This document shows, piece by piece, positions 996 to 64,000 of a stretch of DNA of 64,000 bases (its first letter is position 1; each line of letters opens with the position of its first letter). The stretch is from Amphibalanus amphitrite (taxonomy: Eukaryota; Arthropoda; Thecostraca; Balanomorpha; Balanidae). Both the position numbers and the translations under genes were made by a program. The notes beneath the pieces are model-generated. The model was not told the origin of the DNA. It did no database searches and worked only from the letters and a program-made list of their open reading frames with translations. Location of the stretch: NCBI RefSeq assembly GCF_019059575.1, contig NW_024882021.1, positions 310,001-374,000 on the forward strand, in the 5' to 3' direction.

Positions 996-3900
996 GTGTA
1001 CCGGGGCCGCCGCTGGCGTCCGCTGCCCTCGGACCAGCTGATTCCCGGTGACATCGTGTCGGTGACGCGCTCGGAGCACGTGGTGCCCTGTGACCTGCTG
1101 CTGCTCCGCGGACCGTGCATCGTAGACGAGAGCATGCTGACCGGTCAGTGGCAGTGGCGACCGGCCGCGGACATTTATCCATATCTGTATGTTTTAGATA
1201 TGAATGTATGTTTGTCTGCTCATTCGTTTGTGACTGGATGTCCCTGTGAGCTTTTGGCTGCCTTTGTCCATTTCGAGCATAAAAATCATTTGACCCAGCC
1301 GGGCGCGGAAGTCGATCTGACCACTCCGTCTGACCGCTCTGACCGGCGGCTCTTACCTCTCTGTCCTCTGTCTGTTTGATATGGCCGCTGTCTGACCGCT
1401 CTGTCTCGCCGCTCCGTCCGGCCTCTCTGACCGCTCCGCCCTCTGGCCGGTTTCGCCAGGCGAGTCGGTGCCGCAGATGAAGGAGCCAATCGAGGACGGC
1501 GAGCCGGCTCAGCTGCTCGACATGGACTCAGAGGCCAGGCTGCACGTGCTGTTCGGCGGCACGCGCGTCGTGCAGCACACCACGCCGCCAAAGACCACGT
1601 CCACGCTCAGAGGTAGGTGGCGGAGAGGCAGGAGGCCGGTGACGCTTCCACACTAGCTGTTACCTCCTGTCCACGTCAGAGGTAGGCGGCTGGTTAGGTA
1701 GGTGTCGGAGAGCTGGGCAGCCGGCGACGCCAGCACGTCACCCTGGCCGTCCGATCCTTCCCAGACCAGCTGGCGAGGCGGGATAGGTGTCCTTCCCCCA
1801 TCCAGCACTGTCCGCCGGCTGTGGTGGGCGCCGGCTGTGACTGACGCGCCGCCCCGCCGGCATCGTCCGACAACGGCTGTCTGGCGCACGTGCTGTGTCT
1901 CTGTGCTGTGTCTCTGACGGGCGGACGGCTGTCTGGAATACGTCGTGCTGTGTCTGACGCGGCGCCCTGTCGGCAGCCTCCGACAACGGCTGTCTGGCGT
2001 ACATACTGTGTCTCTAACGCGGGTTCCCGCCGGCAGCGTCGGACAACGGCTGTCTGGCGTACGTGCTGCGCACGGGCTTCTCGACGTCTCAGGGCCGTCT
2101 GCTGCGCACCATCATGTACGGCGTGAAGCGGGTGACGGCCAACAACCTGGAGACGTTCGGCTTCATCCTCTTCCTGCTGGTGTTCGCCGTCGCCGCCGCC
2201 AGCTACGTCTGGATCGAAGGTAAATTACTGCCTAGTGGGCCGACCCCGCCGTCCTGGCGTTAGACAAATACTGCGGTCATTCTACTGTATCGATCGACAT
2301 ATGACCAAGTTGGGCGGTACTCCTCTACTGAGACTGCGGTATTGGCTTTATAACTCCTACTCGGGACTATTCGGATTGATCATAATGCCCACACTGTGAG
2401 CACGGGAAATTGATACTTTGTGCAGCCGCTTATGAGAGGAGTGGGGTGGAGCTAGGGACGTGGAGAGTCTGTAGGCCGGATTTACCCCACTCGGGAGAGA
2501 AGTGGTGTGCTCAGTACCCACTCGACGCCGCCTCCGCTGTGACAGGCACCAAGGACCCGAGCCGCAGCCGGTACAAGCTGTTTCTGGAGTGCACGCTGAT
2601 CCTGACGTCGGTGGTGCCGCCCGAGCTGCCCATCGAGCTGTCGCTGGCCGTCAACAGCTCGCTGGTGTCGCTCATCAAACTCTGTAAGTCCGCCGCCCAC
2701 CCCCTACCGTATCAAATCACCGCTCTTGGGACAGACTGCAGCTCTGTGACTGCGCCGCACTTGCCTCTCCGTTCTGACTCGTCCCTCCCTCCCGCCCGTT
2801 ACCCGCTCCTGCCGCCCGCTCTAACCCGCCCCCGCCCGTTACCGTCAGACGTGTACTGCACGGAGCCGTTCCGGATTCCGCTCTGACAGTATTCCCTCCC
2901 GCCCTGACCCGCCCCGCCCGTTACCGCCAGACGTGTACTGCACGGAACCGTTCCGGATCCCGTTCGCCGGCAAGGTGGAGATCTGCTGTTTCGACAAGAC
3001 CGGCACGCTGACCAGCGACAACCTGATCGTCGAGGGCGTCGCCGGACTCAGGTGCGTCGCCTATCCGTGTATGAACACTGTGGCTGGTGCGTCAACTCCC
3101 CGTGTGCCCGTCCTCCCTTCTGGGCCGGACCCGGGACCATCGCCCTCCTGCCGGTCCCGCGCCGGGGCCCCGCTCTCACTGACACCAATAGCTGGCGTGT
3201 ATCGCCGACATCTGTGATTACTGATTAGTGTGAGTGCTCCCTGCCGCCATGGAGGTGAGTGCCGCACACTCCCCTCTGAGTGCTGCCTGCCGTCAGGGAT
3301 GACGTCAGTGTCGCACGCTCACCATTGAGTGCTCCGTGCCGCCAGGGAGCGTCCGGAGATGTGTGAGATCGCCGAGGCGCCGCCGGAGACGGTCCAGGTG
3401 CTGGCCTCGTGCCACTCGCTGGCGCAGCTCGACGACGGCCTGGTCGGCGACCCTCTGGAGAAGGCCACGCTGACGGCTGTCGACTGGAGTCTGACCAAGG
3501 GTGCGCACCGCCGCCGGCCGGGCGCTGGGCAGTAGACGGGCTGGGTGACGGGCGGCGGGCATTGCTCAGTGATCAGGGGTCAGGTGTAAAACCAACTCAT
3601 TAATATGACATTAATAGGTTTGATTGAATTTTGTGAGGTCAGCTGTAGCAGGAATCAGTGTCTGCCGGCGCTGTGCCGACACCGTCCCGCTGCCGTCAAC
3701 AGGAGACGCCGTGATCCCCAAGAAGGGTAAGATGCCGGGCCTGAAGATCTTCCACCGGTACCACTTTTCGTCGGCGCTGAAGAGGATGTCCGTACTGGCC
3801 GGGTTCACGGAGCCGGGCACGTCCGAGACCCATTACCTGGCCACGGTCAAGGGCGCGCCGGAGACCCTCAAACCGATGGTGAGGGCAGCTGGGACCCCGG

Positions 3901-6900
3901 GATGGGTCCGGGGACAGTCGGACAGGCCCCTGTGACAGTCGGACGGGCCCCCGGGGCAGACGGGCTCGGTCACCGCCCGCCACTGTCGCTCGCAGCGTTC
4001 GATGCCCGCGGCGTGTTACCCGCCGGTGTCGCCGTCCCGCTGCACAGCCCGGGTCCTCTGTGTGCCCCGACCTGACGTCCACCTCCCCGTGTCCCCACCG
4101 TCAGTTTGTGGACGCCCCGGACGACTACGACGCCACCTACCTGAAGATGTCGCGGCGGGGCGCGCGCGTGCTGGCGCTGGGTCGCCGGGATCTGGGCCGT
4201 CTCAGCCACCAGCAGGTCAAGGAGCTGACCCGGGACACCATCGAGGCCGAGCTCGAGTTCGCCGGGTTCGTCATCATCTCCTGTCCGCTGAAGGCCGACT
4301 CGCGCGCCGTGATCCGCGAGATCCTGGCTGCCTCGCACCAGGTGAGATAACTCACCCAGACGGCCACTGGGGCCTCCTTGTCTCCTCGAGTCTGCAATAG
4401 GACTGTCCATCGCCCAGCCTGGCGTCAGCTCATTTCATTAAAAGTGTGTTTCTTTCGAGTCGTCCATAGCTGTGCAATTGTGTTCTTGCCACAGCGATCC
4501 CCCGTCTGAAACGCGCGCTCGTGCCGGACAGGTGGCGATGATCACGGGCGACAACCCGCTGACGGCGTGCCACGTGGCCAAGGAGCTGCGCTTCTCGTCG
4601 GGCGGACGCACCATGCTGATCCTCAGCAGGCGCGGCGGCGACGACTGGGGCTGGCGCAGCATCGACGAGACGGTGTGGCGGCCGCTGGAGCCGACCTCGT
4701 GGGCCGAGCTGCTGGCCCAGCACGACCTGTGCGTCACCGGCGAGGGCGTCACCTTGCTGCAGCAGCGCTCCGAGCGCCTGCTGCAGACCGTGCTGCCGCA
4801 CGTGCGCGTGTTTGCGCGCGTGGCGCCCAAACAGAAGGAGCTGGTCATCACCACGCTCAAACAGCTCGGCTTCGTCACGCTGATGTGCGGCGACGGCACC
4901 AATGACGTGGGCGCGCTCAAACACGCGCATGTCGGTACGTGCGCGAGACCAGCTGCCGGCACTAGGGCCGCGCCTGCGGGGTAGGAGGCCTTACCCTCTG
5001 CAGACTTGGAACACCTCTAAAGGCTGAAGCAGACTCTTTCCGCGTTCAGGAAATCGCATGCGAGAGCCTATTCAAATACATTGTAATTCTTCTCGCATCA
5101 ATCGCTTGCGGGAGGTGCGTGCGATTGATGCGAGCGCGCTTCCAAGTTTCTCATCTCATCTCATCTCATACTGTATTAAGGACATCCGCAATATACTTGC
5201 GGCTATTACTGCCTTTCGTCACGTGATAAAACCAATGAACGTAAATCGGCAATGGGAGAGTAGGCACTCGCAGGGCCAGCTTCACCGCTCACACACACAC
5301 GCTCTCAGAGGCTAGGAGTGGCGGCACGGGGCGAGACACGGGGGAGGTCGGGGGCGCCGGCGCTGCGACCCGACCCCGGGCGCGGCGCAAGTTCCATGTA
5401 TTTGAATAGGCTCTCGCATGCGATTTCCTGACTGCGGAAAGAGTCTCTTTCAGGCTTAAGGTTCTAAGGACGGGTTCTGTCGTTTAAGGTAGGGGTTGTC
5501 CCCCTGGGGACGGGTGGTGTGCAGAGGGATAGGACTGTGTCCCCTGGTGGCGGAGATCTACCCATCGGGGCTGAAGAGAGCCTCCATGCATGGAATAAGC
5601 TCTGGATGTTGTATACTGAGTGTGCCGGTCGCCCTGTACCGGCGCGCACTCACTGTGGACCCGCCGCGCCGGCCCCTGAGACTGACCGCGCGCCCGCTCC
5701 GCTGCAGGTGTGGCCATCCTGGCCAACGCGCCGGAGCGGCTGCCGAGTAAGCGGCGCCGGGAGCCGGCGGCGGCGCGCGAGGACGCCAGCTCGCCGCGCG
5801 ACCGGCTCGATCAGATGGTGGCGCGCGGAAAACTGGGCCGCCGAAACGAGCGCGCGCGGCCCGACCGGCCCACCAACGCCCGCCAGGTGGGGGCTACAAC
5901 TGCTGCCGGCTGATCAGCGCCGGCAGACAGGCCAGCGGGAACACTTGAGATGGGGGCTAGAGGTTGATCAGCTCGGACCAGCGGGAACCTTTTTGACTCC
6001 GAATTTTTAGCAATGAGTACGATTCAACTCTTCTTGGTGTTTACGGTTTATTGCATCATGTATCCTTTATATTCAACACTGGCAGCTAACCCTGGTCAGC
6101 TCTCTACACTGGTGGCCCTCCACGGGCCTGTCCCTGCGTCCCTCGGTAGCGGTCGTGCTGCCACTGACAGTCACTGTCCGTCCGTGTTCTTTAGGAGCGG
6201 CTGCAGCAGCTGCAGACGATGCTGAAGGAGTTGGAGGAGGAGGAGGGTGCCCAGGTGGTGAAGCTCGGCGACGCCTCCATCGCGGCGCCCTTCACCTCCA
6301 AGCTCTCCTCCATCAACAGCGGTGAGTCGCACAGATCCCGATCTGTCTGTCTGCAGCTGGCCGGCTCGGTGGGCGGGGACAGGACCACTCTGCGTGGGAT
6401 TCTTGGCCTGGTGCGTGACCCCCACCCAGTGCGTGTCTGCTGTCATGTGGACGGACCGGTGTTGGTGTATTATCACTTGGTGGGTGTCTCGACTGTGTTT
6501 GGGCGGACCTGTGTTAGTGTATCACCTTGTGGTGCGTGTCGGTTCCGCTCACGGCCCTGCCGTCCGTTCCAGTGTGCCACATCATCGAGCAGGGCCGCTG
6601 CACGCTGATGCCTCTGTGCTGGTGGGTTGTGTGGTGTGTGTCCGCGTGCTCACGGTCCCGCCGTCCGTTCCAGTGTGCCACATCATCAAGCAGGGCCGCT
6701 GCACGCTGGTCACCACGCTGCAGATGTTCAAGATCCTGGCGCTGAACGCGCTCATCCTGGCCTTCTCGCAGTCGGTGCTCTACCTGGACGGCGTCAAGTT
6801 TTCTGACGGCCAGGCCACGCTGCAGGGCATCCTGCTGGCCGGCAGCTTCCTCTTCATCTCCCGCTCCAAGGTGAGCCGACAGCTGCCACCTGACGGTCCA

Positions 6901-9900
6901 CGGTGAGCCGGCAGTTCCCTGTTCATTTCCCGGTGTTAGTTATGTGTGAGTTTTTGTTTCAAGTCAACCTTTCGTCAGTTTGATAGTTAACGTTCGCAAA
7001 TTACTGTAGGAAAATGTCCGGCATTGGCTAACGTATTTATCCGTCCAACCATTATAACGCTCGGCACCTGTTCTCTCCGGCAGCCGCTGAAGGTGCTCTC
7101 CTCTCAGCGGCCGCTGCCCAACATTTTCAACGTGTACACGATCCTGACGGTGCTGCTGCAGTTCGGCGTCCACTTCGGCTGCCTGGTGTTCCTCGTCTCC
7201 GAGGCCAAGGCGCGCATGCCTGTCAGGTGAGTCGGCCGCCGGGAGCGGCTGTAGTGTGGTGTGGAGACCGCCGGTCACCCGGGCTGGCGGCCACTGCGCC
7301 CGGGGGCGGCGTGCCGTACTGCGTCCTGTGTCTGTCTGAACCGTGCGGGGTGAGACTGTGCTGCCAGCCTGTTGACGGCGTCTGGAACTGTAAGTGACGC
7401 GTTTTTCGGGCTCTGTCGCCAGGGAGAGCGGCTTTCCGGACCTGGAGAAGGAGTTTGAGCCCAACATTCTCAACTCGACCGTGTACATCATCTCGATCAC
7501 GCTGCAGGTGGCCACGTTTGCCATCAACTACCGGGTGAGTGGGAAGGCGGACGGAATCTCAGTCAGTCAGTCAGTCAGTCAGTCAGTCAGTCAGTCAGTC
7601 AGTCAGTCAGTCAGTCAGTCAGTCAGTGTTGGCCAGGACGTCAGTCAATGAGTCAGTCAGCCAGTCAGTCAGACAGTGGGACTGGTCATTCAACAGCCGG
7701 CCAGTTCGTCAGCCATGCAGTCAATTATCTAAAGAATCAAGTGGTTAGTCGACTTTCTAAAATAAATATGTAAAATTTTGCTATTGCTGTGAAGTTATCG
7801 ATGAACAGAAAAAATAAACATTCTTAAATGCGTTCAAGGAACTTTTCTGGAGAGAAAAATTATGCAGTTCACTCCTGACGCACACGTGAACTGCGATATC
7901 TTTCCGTTGCTTACCGCGTGTAGCTGTGCGTATGACTCGCTGTGTCTGGGCCCCTCGGCGGCCGGCTGAGGTGCTGACGCCGTACTGTGTCTGTGTGTGG
8001 CTGACGGACTGCTGAGGTGCTGACGCCGTGTGTCTGTGTCTGTGTGTGGCTGACGGGCTGTCTCTCCCCCCCCCCCTCCGGGGCCGGCTGAGGTGCTGAC
8101 GCCGTGTGTCTGCGTGTGGCTGGCGTACTGTCTCCCCCCCCCCCCTCTGCGGCCGGCCGAGGTGCTGACGCCGTGTGTCTGTGTGCGTATGACTCGCTGT
8201 GTCTCGCCCCCCCCCCCCCCCGGCCGGCTGAGGTGCTGACGCCGTGTATCTGTGTCTGCGCTGCCCCGCCGCAGGGCCACCCGTTCATGGAGAGTCTGTG
8301 GGAGAACCGGCCGCTGCTGTACAGCATTGTCGGCTCGCTGGCCGTCGTGTTCGCCATGGCCAGCTGCGTGATGCCCGACCTCAACGAGCAGTTCTCGGTC
8401 GTCATGTTCCCGGACGACGTGAGTAGCGCGCCGGCGCAGGGAAAACATGAGTAGCGCGCCGGCACACCGGAGACGCTCCGACTAACGCGCCGTCACACTG
8501 GGGACGCAGCTGTGACTAACGCGCCGTCACACTGGGGACGCAGCTCTGACTAACGCGCCGTCACACTGGGGACGCAGCTCTGACCAACGCGCCGACACAC
8601 TGCACAGTGGGGATTTTTCCGATCTAGCGCCTATTAATTCAAAAAATCTTTTTGGATTTTTGCTTATTTTTTGTGTCAGTGGGGCTAAGAAATGTCTGAA
8701 TTTTTCATATATGGCATTGTTTTATCTGTATGTCCACAGCAAAACTAGGAAAAATGCGCCCAAAGTTCACACTCATGCGTGATTACTCAATGGGCTCAGC
8801 AAGGCCCGAAAGTATAGCTCAATTTCATTGTCCTGTCCTGTTGGTTTTAATCTTGCGAGGTCTTAAAGTTGCATATCGTCTGAAAGGCACCTTTATTAGG
8901 AATGGAATGGCAAACAGAAAGTATGCCACAACCTTACTAAGGTCACAAAAATGCCCTTTACAAAAAACCCTTACAGACACCATATTGAAGGAATGGTATT
9001 CTAAATAAATGTAGGAAATCAACAATGTTCTCCACACTTTTCCACTCCGAAATATATCCTATCGAATTCGCCACTTTCTCCTGCACAAGACAACGCCTAG
9101 TTTGGCTGCCGAAACTTGCCTGAACACGGAATATTCACATTAGAGTATCTTAACACCCCACTTGAGGAGCGCTAGGGCAAACAGCACGATATAGGTATGT
9201 TCCGGACATAGGCGAATAATTTTACTTCGTGATTTACATGATGCATATTTTCTGAGACACATTCATTAGGAATAGGATGACAAGCGTAAATTATACATAC
9301 CGTAACCTTATGAACCATCGCACTTGTGGGGAGGGGGAGGGGGAAAGGGTCGGATAAAACCCCATGGTTTTCCGCAAATTACTCGCGCAAAAAGCGGCCA
9401 ATCGCGCCGAAACTTTCGGTGCCCTCGAGATCATCAATTTTACATCTAACCTTAAAATTTCATGACTCTGACCCAACTGACCTTTGACCTGTGGCATATT
9501 TCTCGAGACCATGTTTGGCCGGAATCGCGATTCGGCGTATGCCAGCTCACATTATCCGCGGTTTCCAGTCTTTTTGTGGTTTTAAACGTTCAAATATGAG
9601 AAATGATGTTGGTGCCATGCATAATGGTGGGTGTCAAGGTCACGTGAAGGTCAAGTCAAGGTCATTGACCTTTTGATGACCTTGTTTCTTTTTTTCAAGT
9701 TTCACTTGTTTCTAGGGTAGTTTTTGGTGCTGATTTCGATTTTAGCAGCCATTTGAATATTTACGAAGTAGTTCTGGTGCCTTCGTTCCATGTTACGAAG
9801 CTATCAGTAGTAGGTGACACTTCTATGTATGGCCGGCAGGACGCCTACTAGTTGATCTAACCTGACCTGACCCGACCTGGCCTAAATGCATAAAGACATC

Positions 9901-10717
9901 GTCTGTGATCAAAACTAACATGAAATTCGTGATCAGCACCCCAAAATACCCCGTAACACCCTAACTTTGCGAAGTTTCAAGAGGTCTCGATTTCCCAACT
10001 TTAGTTGGGTCATTAAACTGACTTGGAAAGTCAGCTTATGACCTTGGACTTTGAAATTGGATATATTCGGCCTCATTTCGTCATAGGCAGCACGCTTGAC
10101 TTTTCCGCGAAGCTCTAGCTTGATCAGGGGCCAAACGGCTGAGCGGGGGGTCCAGATGAACCCCCTATACTCTGTTGATTATGCACATTTACAGGTAAAA
10201 TTCTCACCAGGACACACCAGCCACCATCTGTGCACAATCTGGCTACAATTCTAATTTTGGTTTGCCCTCTACGAATAAATACGTGCTAGATCGGAAAAAT
10301 CCCCACTGTGCACTGGGGACGCAGCTCTGACCAACGCGCCGTCACACTGGGGACGCAGCTCTGACTAACGCGCCGTCACGGGGGAGAGAACGGGAAGGGC
10401 GCGGCCTGTCTGTAACACTTGATGATCGTGTCTGCCGTGCCACAGACTGACCCTGTCCCCCTGGGTATTCGCAGTTCAGGGCCCTGTCCCACTGGCACTG
10501 ATTGACCCCATTGCACTGTCTCACACGCCCCCTCTCCCGTCCCATTGGCCACTAACTGACCCTGTCCCACTGACTGACCCCCCCCCCCCCGTTCCGGCAG
10601 TTCCGGACGGTGCTGGTGCAGGTGCTGATGGCCGATATCGTGCTCTCCTACATCGCCGACCGCGTCGTCCGCTTCCTGTTCGGACAGGCGCGCCTGCGAC
10701 GCGAGCTGCGCACCTGA
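996..10717 (+). CDS. ATP13A1: ATP13A1, P5A-type ATPase (ER membrane), 5'-truncated by window edge
   Basis: This is the P5A ATPase of the endoplasmic reticulum, known in yeast (Spf1) and mammals as a transmembrane-helix dislocase and formerly called a manganese-transporting ATPase. Sixteen exons join in phase: 996-1143, 1460-1612, 2037-2219, 2546-2683, 2931-3051, 3346-3500, 3703-3878, 4105-4341, 4532-4934, 5708-5886, 6195-6321, 6674-6870, 7084-7226, 7423-7534, 8275-8418, 10601-10717. Together they encode about 910 residues; about 290 N-terminal residues lie upstream by comparison with the animal protein. Visible motifs are MLTGES (actuator), VVPPELPIE (P5A TM4 signature), [13 protein letters not shown] (phosphorylated Asp), [20 protein letters not shown] and [13 protein letters not shown]. 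The stop follows [12 protein letters not shown]. Family and exon structure are near certain. Odd points are duplicated exon heads in several introns and an ADVG-to-AHVG change at residues spanning 4924-4934/5708. Confidence 0.97.
1601..1700 (+). repeat. Donor-edge duplication after ATP13A1 exon 1460-1612
   Basis: The genuine junction reads CCACGCTCAGAG|GTAGGTGG. About 70 bp downstream, at 1670-1690, CCACGTCAGAGGTAGGCGG repeats the last exon bases and the donor, and a third GGTAGGTGTCGGAGAG follows. These look like tandem copies of the junction. Confidence 0.7.
1849..2036 (+). repeat. Three decoy copies of the exon-2037 head (acceptor side)
   Basis: The true exon begins CGGCAG|CGTCGGACAACGGCTGT. 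Preceding copies of this head occur at about 1858-1900 (TCCGACAACGGCTGTCTGG), 1919-1950 (degenerate, GGACGGCTGTCTGGAATAC) and 1971-2012 (CGGCAGCCTCCGACAACGG). The spacing is roughly 50-60 bp. The third decoy keeps the AG acceptor and the first coding bases. Confidence 0.8.
2546..3051 (+). CDS. ATP13A1: ATP13A1 exons for TM4 region and phosphorylation site
   Basis: Exons 2546-2683 and 2931-3051 encode [17 protein letters not shown], the hydrophobic TM3-TM4 segment with PPELPIE, then [15 protein letters not shown] and the invariant DKTGT. PPELP distinguishes P5A from P5B ATPases (PPALP). The junction splits a Tyr codon (T|AC). The real acceptor TTACCGCCAG at 2921-2930 has a near-duplicate about 84 bp upstream. 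Confidence 0.95.
2839..2930 (+). repeat. Decoy copy of the exon-2931 head with acceptor
   Basis: CCCGTTACCGTCAG followed by ACGTGTACTGCACGGAGCC (2837-2870) nearly duplicates the true CCCGTTACCGCCAG|ACGTGTACTGCACGGAACC at 2917-2950. The copy keeps about 35 coding bases, then runs into a stop (TCTGACAG). Confidence 0.85.
3232..3345 (+). repeat. Tandem acceptor-edge repeats before exon 3346
   Basis: Three units of about 50 bp share GAGTGCT-CC-TGCCG-CAGGGA. The last is the genuine acceptor TGCCGCCAG|GGAGCG at 3346; the earlier ones (near 3236-3255 and 3280-3300) are degenerate copies. Confidence 0.6.
4532..5886 (+). CDS. ATP13A1: ATP13A1 exons for the P-domain hinge and the following cytosolic loop
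   Basis: Exon 4532-4934 carries [31 protein letters not shown] and [14 protein letters not shown], the Mg-binding and hinge motifs of the P-domain. Exon 5708-5886 continues [12 protein letters not shown] into a basic, charged loop that is poorly conserved between species ([13 protein letters not shown] and so on). The intron between them (4935-5707) contains a foldback element. The sequence at the exon end reads L-K-H-A-H-V, where P-type ATPases normally have Asp or Glu in place of the second His. Confidence 0.95.
5006..5467. mobile_element. Foldback (inverted-repeat) element in an ATP13A1 intron
   Basis: The left arm around 5030-5086 and the right arm around 5388-5445 are near-perfect reverse complements. 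They share CTTTCCGC, AGGAAATCGCATGCGAG and GAGCCTATTCAAATACAT. Weaker complementarity extends to the outer limits given. The centre holds a TCTCA-type short repeat and a CpG-rich segment. It has no coding capacity; it is probably a non-autonomous MITE. Confidence 0.85.
6195..10717 (+). CDS. ATP13A1: ATP13A1 exons for the C-terminal membrane domain (TM5-TM10)
   Basis: Exon 6195-6321 gives a Glu-rich helix and [19 protein letters not shown]. Exon 6674-6870 gives [19 protein letters not shown] and two hydrophobic helices. Exons 7084-7226, 7423-7534, 8275-8418 and 10601-10717 give the remaining helices, [29 protein letters not shown] and [14 protein letters not shown]. All junction phases agree (1,0,2,0,0). 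The last intron, 8419-10600, is unusually long because a 1.7 kb transposon is inserted in it. Confidence 0.95.
6558..6673 (+). repeat. Decoy copy of the exon-6674 head with acceptor
   Basis: Positions 6553-6610 read CCGTCCGTTCCAG then TGTGCCACATCATCGAGCAG, duplicating the true acceptor and exon head 100 bp further on (Lys codon AAG in the real exon, GAG in the copy). The copy loses similarity after about 36 coding bases. Confidence 0.85.
7561..7627. repeat. (AGTC)n microsatellite
   Basis: An uninterrupted run of about 16 AGTC units, starting 26 bp after the donor of exon 7423-7534. Degenerate copies continue to about 7680. Confidence 0.97.
7960..8265. repeat. Intronic minisatellite with poly-C runs before exon 8275
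   Basis: Repeated units contain GGCCGGCTGAGGTGCTGACGCC followed by GTGTGTCTGTGTGTGGCTGAC and C-runs. There are five or six imperfect copies, ending about 30 bp before the acceptor. The exon head itself is not copied here. Confidence 0.85.
8419..8602. repeat. Minisatellite starting at the donor of exon 8275-8418, continued at 10311-10380
   Basis: Units contain GACTAACGCGCCGTCACACTGG and GGACGCAGCT. The first units (GTGAGTAGCGCGCCGGC, then ATGAGTAGCGCGCCGGC) include the donor and grade into the array. The array is interrupted by the 8603-10310 transposon and resumes at 10311, which shows that the array existed before the insertion. Confidence 0.85.
8603..10310. mobile_element. Non-autonomous DNA transposon, CACAGTG termini, 5-bp target duplication (Transib-like)
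   Basis: The terminal inverted repeats are 28 bp and differ at one position; they begin CACAGTGGGGATTTTTCC and continue GATCTAGC. The element is flanked by CACTG at 8598-8602 and 10311-10315, a 5-bp duplication. Transib elements and the related RAG signal heptamer have CAC-type ends (CACAGTG in the RSS) and 5-bp target duplications, so this family is the best match; that assignment is inference. The interior has no transposase-like reading frame and carries AGGTCA/TGACC half-sites around 9480, 9640-9680, 9860 and 10020-10050. Confidence 0.85.
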
Positions 10718-12760: not shown

Positions 12761-12764
12761 CAGC

Positions 12765-20881: not shown

Positions 20882-20956
<75 letters not shown>

Positions 20957-22009
20957 GCGCCTCTCTCTCTCTTTCTCTCTCTCCTCCTCCTACCCTCCTG
21001 AGGTTTTTTTCTAAGTTCTATACTTCATTATTTTGAGGCTGTTCTTATAGACCTGTCGTCACTGTTAGTTATTTAGATAAGCGCATGTTTTACTCGCCTA
21101 TTGTCTGTGTAGTTTTAGTGACTGGCACGCAGCTCTGTAGTCGAGTGTAGTTGATCTAACGGCGCGGTGGTCCCGCGTCTGCAGGCGACTCCTGCCCAGA
21201 CTCCGTCCGAACCGGAGCTGGAGCTGCCGCCGGTGGCGCCGCCACAGCTGCCCGGCCTGACCAAGCAGCGCGCCCGCGGGCCGCCTCGGCGCCGGCCGTC
21301 GCCGGCCCAGCAGCGCACCGTCTCCTGTCCGCCCGTGGAGGCTGACTCGACCAGCTTCGCCTGGGGCCGCGACCCCACCATCGACCCGGCGCTCTTCTTC
21401 AGCGACGTGGTGGGCCGCAGCCTGGGGGCGCGCGGCGCCCACCGCCCGCTCACCAGCATCGCCGAGCGCGCCGGCCGGACCGGGCCCGCCTCGGACCGCG
21501 CCAGTCGGCTGTCTGAGGCCAGTCGGAGCGGTCCCGGGGCCTCGGACCGCGCCAGTCGGCTGTCTGAGGCCAGTCAGGGCGGTCCTGGGGCCTCGGACCG
21601 CTCCAGCCGGCTGTCTGAGGGCGGCCCCGGGGCCTGGGACCGCTCTAGTCGGCTGTCTGAAGCCAGTCGGAGTGGCCTCGAGGGCTCGGAGGACGGCGAT
21701 GGCTCCCGAGCCGGGGAGGCGGGGGCGAGGCAGGAACAGTCGGAGCGCCTCCCGGCGGCGCCGGCGGCGGGTGACGGGGAGTCAGTGCAGGACGGGGCGC
21801 CGGCGGGGAATGTGACTGACGGGACTGATGGGACTGAGCAGACGGCGGAGGGTGGGATTGATGGGACTGGTGTGACTGGTCAGTTGGCTGATCAGACTCA
21901 GACGCGGACTGATCAGTCTGCCGGTGACGGTCGCCAGTCGCCCGTGCTGCGCCTGACGGGGGGAGAGGTGGAGGGGACGCCCAGACGACGGCTCTGCGCC
22001 CTGCTGTGA
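20734..22009 (+). CDS. Unrecognised CAAX-box protein (two exons visible)
   Basis: Exon 20734-20850 starts at a purine-context ATG (GTGGCCATGA) and encodes a basic N-terminus, MNEWVRRLRSS followed by GRKRRKS. It ends GAT|GTGAGT. The next exon, 21185-22009 (acceptor GTCTGCAG), continues in phase 0 for 274 residues, about 313 aa in all. The middle has four or five degenerate repeats of the kind SDRASRLSEASRSGPGA. The rest is Pro-, Ser-, Gly- and Asp-rich and probably disordered. The last residues are RRRLCALL: CALL is a CAAX motif whose final Leu favours geranylgeranylation, and the preceding Arg cluster suits membrane binding. I do not recognise a family. The frame is open upstream to about 20491, so additional 5' exons or an earlier start are possible. 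GC-rich composition matches the neighbouring real exons. Confidence 0.55.
20881..20990. repeat. (CT)n microsatellite
   Basis: A nearly pure CT run of about 100 bp that begins about 30 bp after the donor at 20850, in the intron of the CAAX-box gene. Confidence 0.97.
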
Positions 22010-25205: not shown

Positions 25206-25760
25206 TGAGGTGCTGACCACTAGCGCCATCTCAGAACAGCTATTGAAGTGCATGTGTAACGCGGCACAGTATCTGTGCGCTCACAGGCGTTAACTACTAG
25301 CGACATCTCTGGACTGAAATCGGAGTGAATGTGTAACGCGGCACAGTATCTGAGCTTTCACAGGCGTTTACCGCTAGCGCCATCTCTGGACAGTAACTGA
25401 AACGAATGTGTAATGCGGCACAGCATATGCTTTTGAAAGGGGCGAACTACTAGCGCCATCTCTTGACAATCAAAGGAGCTGGTGTGTAATGCGGCACAGT
25501 ATCTCTATGCTTACAGGCGTCAACTACTAGCGCCATCTCTGGACGGCAATTGGAATGAATGTGTGATGCGGCACAGTATCTTACGCTTCCGGGCGTTTAC
25601 TGCTAGCGCCATCTCTGGAAAATGATTAGAGCCATTATGTAATGCGGCACAGTATGTTCACAGGAATCAACAGCTAGTCTGCAGCGGCAGTGCCTTCAAG
25701 GGACAATGGAATTGATGTGTGCTGACTGCTGCGGCACAGGTCTCTACAGGCGTCACCTCA
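25206..25760. repeat. 77-bp tandem array
   Basis: Six to seven units with period 76-77 bp share ACTAGCGCCATCTCTGGAC and GCGGCACAGTATCT. GCGGCACAG recurs at 25261, 25338, 25415, 25491, 25568 and 25644, and a degenerate copy follows at about 25731. Confidence 0.95.
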
Positions 25761-27191: not shown

Positions 27192-30100
27192 CTACGACTC
27201 GACGAAGGCGGGGTTCTCCAGTCCGCCCTCGGGCCGACTGGTGAAATCCTTCTCTGCCTCGCTGGAGCCCACTGGTCGGCCGGCTGGCGAGGGGTGGAAA
27301 TGGGGGGTCAGCACAGTGTCAATGGGGGGGGGGGCAGCAGTCAGCACGTCAGCCAGGTGGAGCGAGCACCGGCGGCTTTGATAATATATAACTCAGGGTA
27401 ATTAGGGCATACCTGCCCGAACGGACAGCAGACATGCAGAGGCTCGGTGACATTGCCAAAACACAGAAGTTTGCTACAAGCCCTGAGCCCATGACTCTTC
27501 CCTTGCTCCGAAATCCGAGCCCATGGCTCATCCATTACTTTACTATCATTTTCATGGCGACAGGGAGCGCGCCCTGGCATAAAATTAGGTTTTGACATTT
27601 ATCTAGCATGGTAAGTACCTATACCAGCGGGCGAACCTTGGTCGACGGTGGCCACCGGGTACTCCTCGCTGCCCTCTGGCGGCTTATAGAAGATCCACGC
27701 CAGGTTGTAGAAGATGAACGAGGAAAACTTCCACATCAGCGTGGCGCCCATCAGGTACCTGGCGAAGAAGCCGCCGGGCGGTGAAACGGGCCCGCCAACA
27801 CCGGGTCACTGCCGTACCTGCAATCTCCCACCCAAACATCGCCTGGCCTCCGCCTGCGTCGCCAAATGGTCCCAGGCATTAGACGAACATGAAAGTAAAG
27901 AAGTGATTGTACACGTACGTACATGCACGTCGAAGTAAAGAACAACAACGATGGAAGCCTATTGAGGAAAAGTGACCTATTTGATAAGGCAGCGGCTGGG
28001 GCGATTACCTGCTCATCCACCAGTTGTCGTAGACCAGGCAGTGACTGGGGTAATTGGGGTAATTACCTGCTCATCCACCGGTTGTCGTAGACCAGGCAGT
28101 GGCCGGGTAATTACCTGCTCATCCACCAGTTGTCGTAGACCAGGCAGTGGCTGGGGTAATTGGGGTAATTACCTGCTCATCCACCAGTTGTCGTAGACCA
28201 GGCAGTGGCTGGGGTAATTACCTGTGGCTGGGGTAATTACCTGTTGCCGGGGTAATTACCTGCTCATCCACCAGTTGTCGTAGACCAGGCAGTGGATGGG
28301 GTAATTGGGGTAATTACCTGCTCATCCACCAGTTGTCGTAGACCAGGCAATGGCTGGGGTAATTACCTGTTGCCGGGGTAATTACCTGCTCATCCACCAG
28401 TTGTCGTAGACCAGGCAGTGGAACCTGTTGCCGGGGTAATTACCTGCTCATCCACCAGTTGTCGTAGACCAGGCAGTGGATGGGGTAATTACCTGTGGCT
28501 GGGGTAATTACCTGCTCATCCACCAGTTGTCGTAGACCAGGCAGTGGCTGGGGTAATTACCTGTGGCTGGGGTAATTACCTGCTCATCCACCAGTTGTCG
28601 TAGACCAGGCAGTGGCTGGGCCCGCTGCACGGGCTACCCCACAGCTGGCACGAGCGGTCGATGAGCGCGCCGAATATGATCGGACCGGGGATGGTGCCGA
28701 CGATTCTTAGTACTGTGGTGGAGATGCCCATGGCCAGCGGCCGCTGCCGGGGCGCCACCGACCTGCCGCACCGTCAGGTCGGGTCAGGGCAGGGCGGGTC
28801 GGATGGGACGCTTTGTGAGATCAGAGGCGTGGGCATGCATGATCCCGTTATCTAAACGGTCTGGACTATTCACATCGTCCGCTAATATCTGGGATGGGGC
28901 AGGCTTGCGTTAACTCGCATGATTTCAGTACTACGGCGTTTCTGGGTTCCAAGTTCGGGGCTCTTCTGGGTACAGTTCGAGCTGACCTGCGGTTCATATT
29001 GTTTGAGTTGCGAGCCAAATCAATGCACATTAATATCGCACATCGGCGCTCGGCTGAACTATGGAGTCGCCGCTCCTCCACACCGAGGGTGGTGTTTGCT
29101 TGCGCCACATACCGGCCGAGGTCAGTTCACAGGGCGACGCGCCACGGCGGGCGGCGCCGCTGGACGGTCCGGTGCTGCGCCCCACGGTTCAGCGGCAGCT
29201 GGTGCCAGATATCCCAGTCACGGCCCGGCCGCCGCCGGCAGTGACACCCACCTGAAGATGGCCGTGGAGCTGGGCGACGTACCGACGAATGTACAGAAGG
29301 CGGCCACGCTCTGCGTGATGACGATCAGCGCCAGGTAGGGACAGGCGCCGGCGCACCGGTCCGGCGCCGACAGGCCCTCGGCCGAGTCGTCCATACAGCG
29401 GCAGTCGACGCCGCTCTGCCGACGGCACACACAGGGCGTCAGACAGGACAGCGGACACACCGGGCGTCAGACAGGACAGCGGACACACACCGGGCGTCAG
29501 ACAGGACAGCGGACACACACCGGGCGTCAGACAGGACAGCGGACCGACCGGGCGTCAGACAGGACAGCACACACAGGGCGTCAGACGGGACAGCGGACAC
29601 ACCGGGCCTCAGACAGGACAGCGGACACCGGGCGTCAGACAGAACAGCCCGGACACCGGTCGACAGACGGAACAGCAGACATCGGGCGTCAGACAGGACA
29701 GCGGACACAGGGCGTCAGACAGGACAGCCCGGACACCGGGCGTCAGACAGGGCAGCGGACCGACCGGGCGTCAGACGGGACAGCGGACACCGGGCGTTAG
29801 ACAGGACAGCGGACACCGGGCGTCAGACAGGACAGCGGACACCGGGCGTCAGACAGGACGGTACACACAGGGCGACAGGACAGCGGACCGACCGGGCGTC
29901 AGACAGAAGAGTTAGGAGAACTGCAGACGGGACAGTAGGCAGGAGAGCAGGCATCGAGCGCAGACAGGATAATTCTGATCAACGTGTCACTGACCAAGTC
30001 AGTGACAGTGTCACAGCCGTGTCATCACTGTCAGTGTCGTGTCACTGACCGTGTCAGTATCAGTGTCACAGCCGTGTCAGTGTTAGTGTCAGCTGTGTCA

Positions 30101-33100: not shown

Positions 33101-36100
33101 AGATACACAGGAAGGTGGGGTTGGTGAGGCAGCCCCAGATGGCCGCCGGCAGGTCCTGCCCGGGCACACCGCACACCGTCACGCCGCCATCAGAGGCGCT
33201 ACAGCCGTCAGTTTGCATATCCCATGAATACGAATCACTACCGATAGGTACCACGGCACGTAGAGGTAACCGAGTACGACGGCAGGCATAACCAGCGCCG
33301 TCTGCTCGTGCACGGAGCGGGTGAATAGCAGCCGACTAGTGACCCACCCGGCGCCGTCGACTGACCTTGGCGCGCCCAGTGGCCGCCCGGCAGCCCGCCC
33401 GGCGCCGTCGACTGACCATAGCCCGCCCAGTGACCGCCCAGTGACCGCCCGGCGCCGTCGACTGACCTTGGCCCGCCCAGTGACCGCCCGGCGCCGTCGA
33501 CTGACCTTAGCCCGCCCGGCAGCCCGCCCGGCGCCGTCGACTGACCTTGGCGCGGCCCTCTGCCAGCTTGTTCTCCAGCTTCTCCAGCTGCTGGGCGTCC
33601 CGGCCTCCGTGCGTCTCCGTGTCCCCCGAGTCCAGGTCCCGGGACTGGGGCAGCACGCGCGGGAACGCCAGAACCGGCAGCGCCGCCAGCCACGTGACGA
33701 ACGAGGCGATGAAGAAGCCCAGCCACCAGGCGCCCACCCAGCCCTCGCTGCCGGGGCTCAGCCCCATACTGAGGGACAGCGGGAGAGGGCGCACTGTTAA
33801 ACCCGGGCGGGAGGCAGGAGTGCAGCGCACTGTCAAACATAGAAGGGGAGTAGAGCAGCCTGCTTGCAAGGCCACCCGGGGACGACACATATTCGAACCA
33901 ATTTACACTGCGCGTGATAAGCAGCAGGCGCCGTGTCTGTTTCCGGCACCGGCTCGTATCAGCGGCACTAGGCTAACGGTAATTCACCTTCACCTTGTCG
34001 GCTGCTCCAGTCGGGCGTCCTAGCAGGCACTTTTGAAACGGACCCTATCGGACCCCACAAACACGTACAGTACACAAATACGCGTGCGCATGATAGGACG
34101 CGTTGTTACTCGCAAAAACTAGACGGCAAAAATAAACAAAACTCCCGAAAGACCGTGCGAGTTGTATACCTAGTCCCAACTGACAAAAAAAACTGGCCAA
34201 CAAGACCAGCTAACAAGACAACTGACTGACCGACCCGACCCGTCTGACCGACTGACCGACCCGTGACACCGACTCGTCTGACCCGACCCGTCTGAACAAC
34301 TGACCCGACCCACGACACCGTCTGACCCGACTGACCGACCCGTCTGACCGACTGACCGACCCGTCTGACCGACTAACCGACCCGTCTGACCGACTGAACC
34401 GACCCATGACACCGTCTGACCCGACTAACCGACCCGTCTGACCCGAGACCCGTGTGACCGACTGACCTGCGGGCGTCGACGGTGACAAAGTCTGTGTGGA
34501 TGTTGAGCAGCGTCGATCCGCCCAGGTAGCCGATGGCCGGGCCCACCAGAGCCATGGTGTAGTACACGCCCAGGAACACCTGGCGGGCAACACACAGCGG
34601 TAGAGGTGAGCATAGGCTGACAACGAAATGGCCCGCAAAAGACAGCGGTATGTGCTTCCCGAGTTAGTTTTCGAAAGGATTCCACTCACCGAGACGAGTT
34701 TCTTTTTGACGTTGGCGTCGATGTAGGCGACCCCGAGTGACCAGAGCGGCGCGGCGCCCAGCCCGTGCAGCACCTGGGCCAGCAGGAACACGTACAGGAA
34801 GCGCGACACGTCGCCGCCGCCTCCCGCCCCGGCCTCGGCGTCACACGAGTCGGCGCCGGCGCCGCAGGCCGACTCGGACGGCTGCGTCAGCACCAGGTAC
34901 TCGGGCGTGAAAAAGTGCGGCAGGCTAAACACCAGCGAGCTGCCGGCCGGGGGAGCACCGGTCAGGGCGGGGTAAACTGCGGCAGGCTGAACACCAGCGA
35001 GCTGCCGGCCGGGGGCGTACCGGTCAGGGCGGGGTAAACTGCGGCAGGCTGCCGGCCGGGGGCGAACCGGTCAGGTCGGGGTAAAGTGCGGCAGGCTGAA
35101 CACCAGCGAGCTGCCGGCCGGGGGCGTACCGGTCAGGGCGGGGTAAACTGCGGCAGGCTGAACACCAGCGAGCTGCCGGCCGGGGGCGTACCAGTCAGGG
35201 CGGGGTGAATGGTCTGGGTACACGGGCGGAGTACAGTGGTCAGGTCATGGTACACATACAGAGTACACTCGCTAGGTACATGGGCGGATTACAGTTACAC
35301 CAATCAGGTCAGGGTACACAGAGAGGGTTCACGGGCGGGTACTCTCGAGTCAGCGCGCACGGTCAGGGCCAGGCAGGACACATAAAATTGACGTAATATA
35401 TGGGTTCCGTCAATAGCGTAGCGAATGTTCATATCCTGTGCACACAATCCAACGCCCAGCCACCATCCACTTATCACCCACCTGCCCACCCACCCAGCAC
35501 CCAGAGGTGGTGGTCAGCACTCAGCACCCAGAGGCGGTGACCAGCACCCACCCAGCACTCAGAGTCGGTGGCCAGCACCCACTCAGCACCCAGAGGCGGT
35601 GGCCAGCACCCACCCGATGCCCATGACGATGAGTCCGATGCCGATCCAGCGCGGTTTGCTGGCGGCCGCGCGCCCGCCGGCGTACGCGATCGGTACCGAG
35701 CACAGGGTGGCCGCGATGTCGTACGTGCCCGCGATCAGGCCCGCCTGCGCCGACGTCAAGCTGAAGCGCCGCTCCAGAGACGTGATGCTCACGTTGATCA
35801 GACCGTTGATGATGAAACCTGCACAGACGCAGAGATTAGGGGCGCCGGTCAACGGTGGGCCCCGAGCGCATAGGCTCGCGGCCGCAGAGTCGAGTCAGAC
35901 TTCTAGTTATAGGGGTCTGAGGCAGCATTTTGGGATATTGGCGCTGTCGGCTTCTTAATATATACACATTTTTTCGAAACATTTGTACAAACTACAAGTT
36001 AACGCTTTCTCTGGCCATAGCAGAGGGCAGATTCTGCAAGTGATTTCAGGGCGGGCAAGCAGTAAGCTGGTGCAGATGCCGAATCGTTCCCACGACGCCT

Positions 36101-40235: not shown

Positions 40236-40311
40236 CCACAGTACCCGCAGTCGCTCACCTACAGACAGTGCCGCTGTCTGCACAGACCTCACCAGGCCAC
40301 CCGGGACGGAA

Positions 40312-42796: not shown

Positions 42797-54021
<11,225 letters not shown>

Positions 54022-55838: not shown

Positions 55839-55884
55839 GTTCTTTCTCGAAACACTGGCTTATTTCTAGATGATTGGTGATTAA

Positions 55885-57697: not shown

Positions 57698-59170
57698 CTC
57701 TCCTAAGGCATTGCCTTCGGCACTGCCGCTGCTTCACGACGAAAAATTTCATGACGTCACTTTCCTCACAGTTGAATAGCATCGTTAATATGTATTCACT
57801 AAACCTTGGAGCGCAGTGCGTGGCCGGTGGAGTACGCAGTCGGTGGGATCTACGGCGGTGACGGTAAATATTGTATTGGTGCATTTTAACTTATTTGTGC
57901 CATGAATGACTATCAGCTATGAAATAAAAAGGTCAAATTATGTCATGCGATATGCTTCTTACTATCACTTGGGGTTCGCAACAAAAGTAATGGCTGCCGG
58001 TCCTAAAGTAAATAAATACCGAAGCAATTTTTGTTGCCTCCATTTTTTGATTACAGAAGACTAGTTTGCCCAACTGACTTCAACTTTGCACTTTGCAACA
58101 CACCTCCAATTGTAGCTCATGGATGCGTCCAAATGATGATGTTGTCCATATGATAAGAATTAAGATGCAGTTCTTGATATACATCTTGACCTAAGTAATA
58201 TAACAAACTGAAATATAGCAACAGAAAATCTGGACAATAAAAAGGCATCAACACTTTGGTCTTTGACTAGATCGCTGCTGAATCATCCATACGCATTCAC
58301 TGTAAATTTTGCTTTAGCGACAATAAATGCTCAAATGAGATAATTTTATATGGCGATACACCTAAGCAAAAGTACTGATATTTCTTGATAATTCAAGCGC
58401 TTTGTATCACAGCTCCCCCTCTTCTCAATTCTCTCCCCCGCTTGGGGTGCTGCTTGTGGTTGCTATACGATTCCTGCGCTCTTGTTTCAATATCAAACAA
58501 AAAGCATTTCTGAAAAAGCTGATGTATATTAAGAAGCTTTTAACTAATATGCACAATTAGACTAATTTTACCATGATATATTACCCAAAAATTTGTTTGA
58601 AATAGCAAATAGGATGTAAAATCGTCATTAAAAGTTGATTAGAAACAAAAACTTCCATCACCAATTTATCTACGTCATCAAAAAACGTTACGCGATCATC
58701 GATGCATCGATGCCGTCGAAATCTGTTCGGTTAGGTCGTTACGCAAGTTCCTTTTTGCCTTGTGATCTGACGTATCTACTTTGTGAAGTGAGACTTATTA
58801 GGACAACTTGATATGGTTGATTACAAAAAGGTCATTTCGTTGCTTTTTGTGGGCAAGCTCTTTTAAAAATACCTTCTTTTGAAAGAATTAAGAACTTCTA
58901 ACGGCTTAGTTGCGGTTGTCATGGCAACTACGAATTGGATAGAGATAGAAGGGGTTGGCATAGAACAGAGGAACAGAGGTACGGACTCCCCGCCAACCTT
59001 GCTCACGCCGCGCACGCGTGTTGCTCTGTTGGCTGTGCTTCATGCGGTTTTCTCGGTTTTCTGTTGGATGATTGCCTGTAATCTTGGTACCCTGTTTCAA
59101 GTTAATAGAATTAGACTGTGCGCTTGAAATTCTAAGCAAATTGATTCATCATCAACAAGGATTTGCAATC

Positions 59171-61694: not shown

Positions 61695-61764
61695 GCCGCC
61701 GCCGCCCCGTCCACCCCGCGCCATCGCATCTCATTTGTTTGTGTTTAATACAGATTACGCTTTG

Positions 61765-61770
61765 TTTATT
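61765..61770 (-). terminator. Possible IQGAP poly(A) signal
   Basis: AATAAA on the minus strand (TTTATT on plus), 660 bases past the IQGAP stop and only 71 bases beyond the TRMT112 stop. If used, the two 3' UTRs would overlap or abut tail-to-tail. Support is positional only. Confidence 0.3.
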
Positions 61771-62429
61771 AATAGTCGTGTGCCCCGGCGGACGGTACCA
61801 CCGTTCGGCGCCGGCGGCGGGTCCGCCCCCGGCTGTATCAGTTACTGTCAGTGCGTCAAACTCGCCGCAGTGACACGTCACACACAGACACACACACACC
61901 TGCGCTGCCGCCCCCTCAGCTGCACACATTTCCCCGGCCTCTGATTGTCAGCTGCTACACGACGCCAATGGCTGGACGGTCGGACGGTGGTGACACGGAC
62001 CCATCGTCGTAAAATAACACCCCATAAAGGCAGCCGCCGGGCGCGTACAATGCCGTACACGCCATATTCTATAAAGCACCTACGACCTACGTGTGGTCCC
62101 ATTAGCACCATTTCGTTCCGCTCGTGGCTACCCTGCTGGGTGACGGCCGGGCGGCCCGGGTTTGGAGCGGACCCTGCCCCGGGATCCGCGACCCGCACAC
62201 CGCCCCGCCGCCGCCCGCTCACTAGCGGTCTAACGCTAGTGGATAGAGGAAGCTGAAGACTGGAGCTGCTTCCGAGCCCAAAGATATGTACACTGTACAG
62301 TGCACCAGCCCCCGTGGGCAGCGTGTGACGGCGGCTCCGAGTCTGACGTCACGGCGTGTGACACAGGCACGGAGGGCCCACAGACCCGACCGGGTGTCGC
62401 GGCACACGCCGGCCCTCGGGCGCCGCGCC

Positions 62430-64000
62430 TCACTTCTTGGTCTTGCCGTAGAACTTGCTGTTGAGGAGGAAGATGAGGAGGTTGACGTTGATCCTCACCC
62501 TGCCGAACATGTCCATGACGGAGACGCCGTCGTACTGCAGCTGCAGCAGCTCCTGTGGGGGGTGGCGAGGGGGGAGGTGGTGACACGCCGTCTCACGGCA
62601 GCAGCTCCAGCGCTGCCAGTATGACCGGGAGGTGACCGCAGACAAAAAAAAAAAAAAACTTAACTGTATTATTTCAGTATTTCAGAGTATTCTGATTCAG
62701 TAATTCTGAAAACCCGCCGTTGTTTATTTATGCCTGCTTTTTTGCCCAGCAAAGACGACACTCGGTATATCTCATTATGGAGGTACGGCCAAACAGCCGT
62801 TTGGGCTGTTTGGCCGTGCAGCCGTACGGCCGTACGGTCGTATGGTGCGCCGTTCCCGCCCACACGGCCCTCGGCCTGGCCCAGTGAACAGCAACACACA
62901 GCGCCCGTTTGTAAAGGACGGCAGATATCGACACCTTTTTTTAAACCCCACATTTGTTCTCCGGTGAATTTCAGACAAGTTGGTTAGAGACCTTCAAAAA
63001 AGTCACTCGATTTTTCTCAAGTTTGTCTGTCTTGGCAGATAAAGCAATATCAGAACAGGCCTACGAACACACATATTTGATCAGGATCGGACGATTGGAC
63101 ACTTTTAAAAGGAGATCTTTCGTGCCTCCCGGAAATTCACGGGAGAGCAGATGTGGGGTTTAAAAAAAGGTGTCGATATATGGACGTGACAGAGATTGAG
63201 AGCAGGTATGCGGTCTCGCCCGTAAGTGTATGCCTCCTGACAGGCGCCGTCAAACTGCGCTGATATGACGGGCGCGGACGAAGGCTCACCTGTAGGCTGA
63301 TCTCGACCCGCTCCAGCTGCACGCCGAGCAGTTTGGCGTTCACCTGGAACGTGCTCTCGGCGGCCAGCGGCGAGATCTCGAACTGGACACCCTTCAGCTG
63401 AAAACAATTATACACCACATTATACCAGCGGCGAGATTTCTCGAACTGCACCCCTTTCAGCTGAAAACGGTTACACGATCACATTATACCAGCGGCGAGA
63501 CACCCCCACAGCTGCGAACTGCACAAGACCCATGATACCACCCCTTTCAGTGGAGGACGCACCGAAACCCCATTATATCAGCGGCTAGATCTTAAAACTG
63601 GACCCCGCCCCCATTCAGCTGAACACGCCGGTAAATGATAACAATGTACTGGCGCGGGTTCCAGACTGGGTTTTTCCTACGGGAATTCATGGGAACACTT
63701 GACGTACAACCAAAGGCGATGGAAGCTCTTCAACAGTATAACATACATAAGAAACAAGAGGTACAGGCCACCCAGAGGCCTGAGTCTGGCTCGATACATA
63801 CCCTGCCCAGTGTCCCCCCCCCCCCCCCACTGACCTCTGCCGGCTGCATGCCCTCGATGCTGATGAGCACACCCTTCTCCTTGAGCCGGGCGGCCGAGTA
63901 GCGGCGCGGCGCGGCCGCCCGCTTGGTGCGCTGGCCGGCCGCCATCGCCTGCAGACACGTGTTCAGGTACTGGCTGAAGTAGGCCGCCTGCTCCTGGTAG
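62430..64000 (-). CDS. IQGAP: IQGAP (Ras GTPase-activating-like scaffold), C-terminal exons only
   Basis: IQGAPs are cytoskeletal scaffolds that bind Cdc42/Rac and calmodulin. Three exons, read from the right edge: 64000-63835 (continues outside), 63397-63290 and 62552-62430, all phase 0. They encode YQEQAAYFSQYLNTCLQA, a basic KRAAAPRRYSAARL segment, KEKGVLISIEGMQPAE, then LKGVQFEISPLAAESTFQV and AKLLGVQLERVEISLQ, and finally ELLQLQYDGVSVMDMFG and NVNLLIFLLNSKFYGKTKK, then stop. This is the RasGAP C-terminal region that ends animal IQGAPs. The middle exon has duplicated heads in the upstream intron, and a foldback sits in the last intron. Catalytic-like GRD and IQ motifs lie outside the window. 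Confidence 0.95.
62785..62816. repeat. Short perfect palindrome followed by CGTACGG repeats
   Basis: ACGGCCAAACAGCC-GTTT-GGGCTGTTTGGCCGT, followed at 62822-62840 by ACGGCCGTACGG palindromic units, in the last IQGAP intron. It may be part of a larger insertion that includes the neighbouring foldback. Confidence 0.8.
62925..63179. mobile_element. TIR element in the last IQGAP intron
   Basis: The left end ATATCGACACCTTTTTTTAA continues to ACCCCACAT and TGAATTTC. The right end is its reverse complement, GAAATTCA, ATGTGGGGTTTAAAAAAAGG, TGTCGATAT. Arms are about 48 bp with few mismatches around a 160-bp core. MITE-like, no coding. Confidence 0.9.
63398..63620 (-). repeat. Decoy acceptors and heads beside IQGAP exon 63290-63397
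   Basis: The genuine start is TTGTTTTCAG|CTGAAGGGTGTCCAG then TTCGAGATCTCGCCGCTGG. At 63426-63470 (minus strand) CGTTTTCAGCTGAAAGGGG then TGCAGTTCGAGAAATCTCGC repeats acceptor and about 36 coding bases with a small insertion. More degenerate copies lie at 63487-63560 and 63575-63625. Confidence 0.9.

Follow-up and report, generated by a model that had tools for sequence, protein, structure and literature searches.

In a 64-kb window of the genome of the barnacle Amphibalanus amphitrite (contig NW_024882021.1, one haplotype), tandem arrays in the introns of several genes re-copy the splice junction beside them, exon edge included. Strict and gapped sequence comparisons together identified such copies at 18 of 86 junctions, 12 acceptors and 6 donors, with up to about 48 bases of exon lying within an array, and confirmed that the re-copying is real. 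The arrays probably result from short tandem duplications at random positions, which are tolerated across a junction since they leave the surroundings of the outer splice site intact, and which were then expanded.

Tandem copies of exon edges

Splice models for six genes, with introns picked as GT-AG, supplied 43 introns and 86 junctions; further 5′ exons of some genes lie outside these counts. Thresholds were our own choice; the main ones were varied and the outcomes are given. Overlap with an array detected by Tandem Repeats Finder was rejected as sufficient proof that exon sequence is included because array ends are fuzzy, and identity of the exon part together with a comparison with swapped edges was demanded instead. 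In the strict test, 8 exon and 16 intron bases spanning the junction had to recur in the adjoining intron with at least 18 of 24 matches, at least 7 of 8 in the exon part. Fifteen of the 86 junctions passed, against an expectation of 0.14 when exon edges were swapped between introns. In the gapped test, 30-base exon edges were aligned to their own intron and compared with all other edges. At a score of at least 24, 13 of 86 edges outscored every other edge (null means for the two sides, 0.18 and 0.12), and exon segments taken 60–90 bases from the junction gave no match at score 24 in the 42 usable exons per side, one exon of 38 bases being too short.

Two junctions, acceptor 52374 and donor 6870, were brought in by the gapped evidence. 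A third, acceptor 49261, reached 17/24 in the strict window, a value for which no null was given, and outscored the other edges in the gapped test (23 vs 20). The resulting 18 junctions are those left from a loose count of 22 crossings after four weak ends (8418, 35614, 52196 and IQGAP 62552) were dropped. Acceptor 33155 of OATP intron 5, one of the 13 edges of the gapped test (24 vs 22), was not counted; the copy sits closer to the donor, and the junction failed the strict test. At each of the 18 junctions the best copy is closer to the edge that it repeats than to the opposite one, as determined by the gapped test for 15 and by strict-test lags for 3. When introns are paired with exon edges from other introns, just 0.3–0.4% of pairs attain score 24, and the array units look locus-specific. 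Table 1 lists the sites.

A first-pass annotation of this DNA, made from the sequence by eye of a model, had named 17 sites. Fifteen of them hold, namely all those in Table 1 other than acceptors 46916 and 52374 and donor 6870, which were absent from its named sites, and donors 52196 and 35614. Donor 52196 is marginal, with 6 exon bases in the array, and donor 35614 fell away, the array reaching 2 bases into the exon (5–10 by looser windows) with no ungapped decoy. The claims that donors and acceptors are both affected and that each array has its own unit were borne out, and so was the inclusion of coding bases, the extent of which had been put too low at 6–36.

Table 1. Arrays at splice junctions in the window. 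Strict, matches in the strict test; gapped, score in the gapped test, followed where given by that of the best other edge; decoys, re-copied splice sites.
Junction	Gene, intron	Array	Strand	Unit and exon bases included	Tests and decoys
acceptor 2037	ATP13A1, 2	1830..2073	+	degenerate array, ~37	strict 18/24, lag 173; gapped 50
acceptor 2931	ATP13A1, 4	2809..2967	+	duplication, lag 82, ~37	strict 23/24; gapped 51
acceptor 6674	ATP13A1, 11	6544..6715	+	duplication, lag 101, ~42	strict 23/24
donor 6870	ATP13A1, 12	6837..6934	+	decayed duplication, ~23-34	gapped 26 vs 20
donor 28580	OATP, 10	27983..28627	-	array, lags 58/68, ~48	strict 24/24
donor 33546	OATP, 5	33338..33564	-	array, lags 39-50, at most ~19	strict 24/24; decoys 4/4 intact
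acceptor 34939	OATP, 2	34902..35332	-	62-bp array, ~38	gapped 51; strict 23/24; decoy AG 4/4 intact
donor 35614 (not counted)	OATP, 2	35483..35623	-	array abuts donor, ends 35615	exon inclusion unsupported
acceptor 42926	GPR107, 12	42887..43198	-	72-bp array, ~40	strict 24/24; decoys 3/3 intact
acceptor 43510	GPR107, 11	43491..44050	-	array, interrupted by hexamer microsatellite, ~12-20	strict 24/24
donor 45142	GPR107, 11	45022..45161	-	37-bp array, ~15-20	strict 19/24; gapped 25 vs 29
acceptor 45261	GPR107, 10	45226..45959	-	array, periods 43/73, ~36	strict 24/24; decoys 6/8 intact
acceptor 46916	GPR107, 8	46904..47116	-	duplication, lag 64, ~8-13	strict 18/24
acceptor 49261	GPR107, 6	49244..49478	-	decayed copies, ~18-25	gapped 23 vs 20; strict window 17/24
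donor 50925	GPR107, 5	50454..50943	-	30-bp array, ~13-19	strict 21/24; decoy GT 6/11 intact
acceptor 51414	GPR107, 3	51394..51686	-	decayed array, ~21-27	gapped 28 vs 22; strict 18/24
donor 52196 (marginal, not counted)	GPR107, 3	51802..52207	-	array ends 52201, ~6	decoy flank 19/26
acceptor 52374	GPR107, 2	52343..52515	-	copies, ~30	gapped 47 vs 21; no ungapped decoy
donor 53599	GPR107, 2	52808..53610	-	36-bp array, decayed exon edge ~11	gapped 21 vs 20; strict 18/24
acceptor 63397	IQGAP	63372..63508	-	63-bp duplication, ~26	strict 20/24

Gene models, outer splice sites and decoys

The modelled genes are ATP13A1 (forward strand, 16 exons), an OATP4A1-like transporter (OATP; reverse, 12), a GPR107-like protein (GPR107; reverse, 13), the C-terminus of IQGAP (reverse, 3), TRMT112 (forward, 3) and an unnamed gene at 20.7–22.0 kb (forward, 2). 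ATP13A1 was named from P5A ATPase structures, IQGAP from RasGAP_C and the IQGAP1-3 structures, and the OATP, GPR107 and TRMT112 genes from the Pfam families OATP, GOST_TM and Trm112p. Three annotated A. amphitrite proteins match the window, P0241 and P0121 at 100% identity and P0001 at 99%, and the models of ATP13A1, OATP and GPR107 occur letter for letter within P0241, P0001 and P0121, respectively; this comparison covers three of the six modelled genes. At one OATP donor, the position of which was taken from P0001, the agreement is by construction. This donor stood at 27637 in the position profile and in the random placement of whole arrays described below and at 27619, as implied by P0001, from the strict test on; the gapped test had another, incorrect value for that intron, where no counted site lies.

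For ATP13A1, OATP and GPR107 the annotated proteins are those expected if the outer, exon-proximal splice site is used. The re-copied sites further inside the intron were examined as decoys at 20 junctions, of which 17 had ungapped decoys, 70 in total. The splice dinucleotide was kept in 46 of the 70, as against 50.7 expected from the identity of the flanks, so that the ungapped decoys give no sign of purging; units carrying either intact or decayed sites had been reported in the first-pass annotation. The array in GPR107 intron 2 seems to have grown from a founder in which AT stood in place of GT: at donor 53599 the detected array stops 2 bases before the exon and GT is kept in just 2 of 18 decoys. 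Outside that array, 44 of 52 decoys are intact (39.5 expected). The clearest case is donor 28580, followed by nine decoy donors, all intact and all reading CAG/GTAAT (CAG/GTAATTACC), and at acceptor 6674 the decoy is identical across 28 bases (flank 26/26).

A further predicted GPR107 protein, P0125, comes from a separate contig of 185,626 bases. The prediction reads through three 30-bp units of the array at donor 50925 and, near 45261, makes use of a decoy acceptor. The translated units of both arrays are similar, not identical, to those of the window, which suggests that the arrays are present in another assembly with somewhat different sequence, and also that gene predictors can be fooled by them. 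The practical warning is that the arrays are an annotation hazard for barnacle gene models, decoys having entered at least one predicted protein.

These observations bear on whether the arrays could be assembly artefacts, produced where reads from repeats or haplotypes were wrongly joined in tandem. Two contigs encode near-identical GPR107 proteins (P0121, 479 kb; P0122, 391 kb) and probably represent two haplotypes, and a related barnacle, B. improvisus, is described as very heterozygous (PMC8270832). Nonetheless, substitutions and small indels distinguish the copies within arrays, one intronic array has a transposon-like element with 43-nt inverted ends inside it, and the third contig, that of P0125, encodes similar but non-identical units of two arrays. 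An artefactual origin is thus most improbable.

Arrays and intron length

Of the 43 introns, 30 contain arrays, which form 47 families. Since 25 of these families fail to extend across a junction by at least 8 bases, junction crossing belongs to a process that is general in introns. The share of bases covered by arrays is 44% in introns, 14% in other non-coding sequence (18% when standardised for GC) and 12% in exons. Their expansion accounts for 9,298 of 26,533 intron bases, or 35% of intron length. Median length is 610 bases for introns that contain arrays and 308 for those lacking them (P = 0.003), a difference of which part is expected because longer introns offer arrays more room. After the expansion was subtracted, the medians were 300.5 and 308 (P = 0.79), and this disappearance supports growth of introns by arrays. 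Lengthening of the introns, raised in the first-pass annotation as an alternative to intron gain, is thus supported, not proven.

Other repeats were noted in the same analysis. The transposon-like element is 1.7 kb long (8598–10315, ATP13A1 intron 15; 43-nt ends 91% complementary) and appears to split a 34-bp minisatellite, copies of which flank it at 8475–8602 and 10311–10379; the array is therefore probably older than the insertion. In ATP13A1 intron 9, a structure resembling a miniature inverted-repeat transposable element (5017–5460) has 72-nt arms, 88% complementary, with 300 nt between them. The unnamed gene at 21 kb has an in-frame coding minisatellite (21488–21690) with 51/42 bp units of the RLSEASR type in its final exon, and a satellite-like array with a period of 77/153 bp lies outside the modelled genes at 25216–25655.

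Proposed intron gain

The first-pass annotation had raised the possibility that the region shows intron gain through tandem duplication of AGGT-containing exon segments (the Rogers model). An intron gained in this way should have a 3′ end resembling the upstream exon end and a 5′ start resembling the downstream exon start. These two comparisons, each made over 60 or 150 bases, gave four cross-edge tests, in which none of the 43 introns reached score 24, although only recent gains are visible in this manner. The corresponding own-side tests were passed by 3 and 10 of the 43 introns. OATP intron 9 and IQGAP intron 2 scored 20–21 in the downstream-exon comparison (0.14–0.29 expected), which can be held in favour of gain, but the matches were judged to be GC-rich chance similarity. 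The exons flanking ATP13A1 intron 5 (3052–3345) share a GC-rich stretch near their edges, with a score of 26, possibly also by chance.

Gain has other points in its favour. Donor units such as those at OATP 28580 carry an intact AG/GT, Ebner et al. have already proposed gain for the comparable arrays of amphioxus (PMC3087553), and a potato gene is reported to have acquired an intron by duplication of an intron-exon boundary (PMC4974935). Against it stand, besides the cross-edge result, the position of the best copy nearer its own edge at the 18 counted junctions and the alignments of ATP13A1 with a solved P5A ATPase and of IQGAP with IQGAP1, which continue through the array junctions uninterrupted by any insert. 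We consider it very unlikely that the arrays represent intron gain underway.

Probable origin of the arrays and possible preference for junctions

The anatomy of the arrays points to the following course of events. Short segments, mostly of ~20–120 bp, of gene-rich barnacle DNA would duplicate in tandem at many independent places, as seen mainly in introns. When a duplication happens to span a junction, the flanks of the outer copies would be unchanged, and the first donor or the last acceptor would stay in its old setting. The outermost, exon-proximal copy would go on being spliced; as long as this outer site prevails, the mRNA would be unchanged and the event nearly neutral, which would let the duplication persist. 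Some two-copy events may then be expanded by slippage, unequal exchange or gene conversion into minisatellites growing inward, with the exon copy frozen by coding selection and the intronic copies drifting and, presumably, unused in RNA. The outcome would be longer introns with rows of spare splice sites, and no targeting would be needed. Consistent with tolerance, crossings are near expectation when families are matched for identity at thresholds of at least 20, 22 or 23 of 24 (10, 8 and 8 crossings vs 7.9, 7.3 and 6.4), although this comparison undercounts crossings because an array is oldest at its exon edge. Also in favour of the explanation are the many arrays that do not cross a junction, the lack of a coverage peak at junctions, the annotated proteins' agreement with outer-site use, the retention of decoy dinucleotides at about the predicted rate, the loss of the length difference once expansion is subtracted and the similar behaviour of the amphioxus arrays.

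Several results weigh against this explanation. With one uniform initial duplication per family, 8.2 crossings are expected (7.7 with one composite 392-bp unit capped), and 15 by the strict test to 18 were seen (P = 0.006 and 0.0001, respectively). Random placement of whole arrays gives 8.3, compared with the loose count of 22. The density of array ends is 0.42 per bp on the exon side (8–60 bases from the junction), 0.23 immediately within introns and 0.03–0.13 at 61–180 bases, the expectation being 0.24. The array coverage of introns is ~2.4 times the GC-standardised level of other non-coding DNA (44% vs 18%), which plain slippage does not explain. Finally, the P0125 gene model uses decoys at two arrays, and decoys may thus be used in RNA.

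The crossing excess, the exon-side ends and the intronic abundance would all fit exon edges that start tandem duplications more often than the rest of the intron does, through their sequence, R-loops or splicing-coupled breaks. Other evidence argues against such a preference. In a position profile made with 20-base windows matching at 16/20, array coverage was 1% at 60 bases into the exon, 20% (17/86) at the junction, 23% at 15 bases into the intron and 27–34% at 30–150 bases; no peak was present at the junction, and 17 junctions were spanned compared with 21.8 ± 3.2 for two random positions per intron. The profile is biased towards finding no hot spot and is not decisive alone because copy number inflates interior coverage. 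Array ends at 8–60 bases into exons numbered 22 and those equally far into introns 12 (P = 0.12), with 10 in the 120 bases at 61–180. The event count is not decisive alone either, because its outcome varies with the length assumed for ancestral introns and is affected by the frozen exon copy. If ancestral introns had 75% or 50% of the estimated length, the expectation rises to 10.4 or 14.2 crossings, and against the latter 15 gives P = 0.46 and 18 gives P = 0.11. The excess is also gone at matched identity, with the undercounting mentioned above. An ordinary source of the excess may be the frozen exon copy, through which old crossings would stay detectable for longer than a drifting pair.

A junction preference of up to two-fold is therefore possible but not established, and we regard junctions as preferred sites as an unlikely explanation. 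On the suggestion of the first-pass annotation that junctions are chosen, the evidence is divided: edge inclusion in the window is about two-fold above, and not merely equal to, random placement, but the position profile has no peak at the junction, and the excess is mostly lost with identity matching or shorter ancestral introns. Equally doubtful is the broader proposal that exon edges are duplication hot spots in barnacles as in amphioxus (~two-fold), re-copying splice sites, driving intron growth and keeping a reservoir of intact decoys for new exons or introns.

Comparison with known systems

In duplicated genes of humans, internal tandem repeats alter the length of introns and exons (PMC2812944). 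Like the barnacle arrays, they have units on the scale of minisatellites (~30 bp), make introns or exons longer and can bring cryptic splice sites into use; about half are located in coding sequence, in genes of recent segmental duplications, whereas the barnacle arrays are intronic and cross junctions. Duplications of boundaries or splice signals are known in ATP2A1, fission yeast and the potato RdRp gene (PMC4974935), where, as in the barnacle, a tandem duplication beside or across splice signals gives an extra GT and AG. In contrast to those cases, the barnacle introns fail the cross-edge match; as far as tested, they were extended and not created.

The closest counterpart is the mirages of amphioxus, which affect both types of boundary, carry AG/GT in many copies, are regularly spliced and vary in copy number (PMC3087553); a 2013 paper added PGBD5 and TnC (PMC3902484). 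The barnacle units likewise span one junction and contain exon and intron bases (15/86 junctions by the strict test, 18/86 with gapped evidence), 5′ and 3′ boundaries are both affected, and many, though not all, copies keep AG/GT (46/70). Mirage units measure 10–160 bp, and an intron-gain model was proposed for them too (PMC3087553, PMC3902484). The differences are the arthropod host and the density, 18 junctions out of 86 within 64 kb. For amphioxus, reverse transcription PCR and instability data are reported; the barnacle arrays were studied through sequence and predicted proteins. Mirages were found in cephalochordates, a restriction that we treat as a matter of discovery history and not as a defining feature. 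No report from a barnacle or another arthropod was found in the open literature, most subscription journals lying outside the search, and the passages available from five barnacle papers are silent on the subject.

A feature that we found described from lancelets only is thus extended to a crustacean, at a density, about one fifth of the junctions in 64 kb, that permits statistics. The arrays offer a direct view of intron growth and a test of whether exon edges attract duplications, and the nine identical donors at OATP 28580 allow measurement of how the splicing machinery picks the outer site among many. Both the phenomenon and the idea of intron gain are already in print for amphioxus; the barnacle adds a dense new case.

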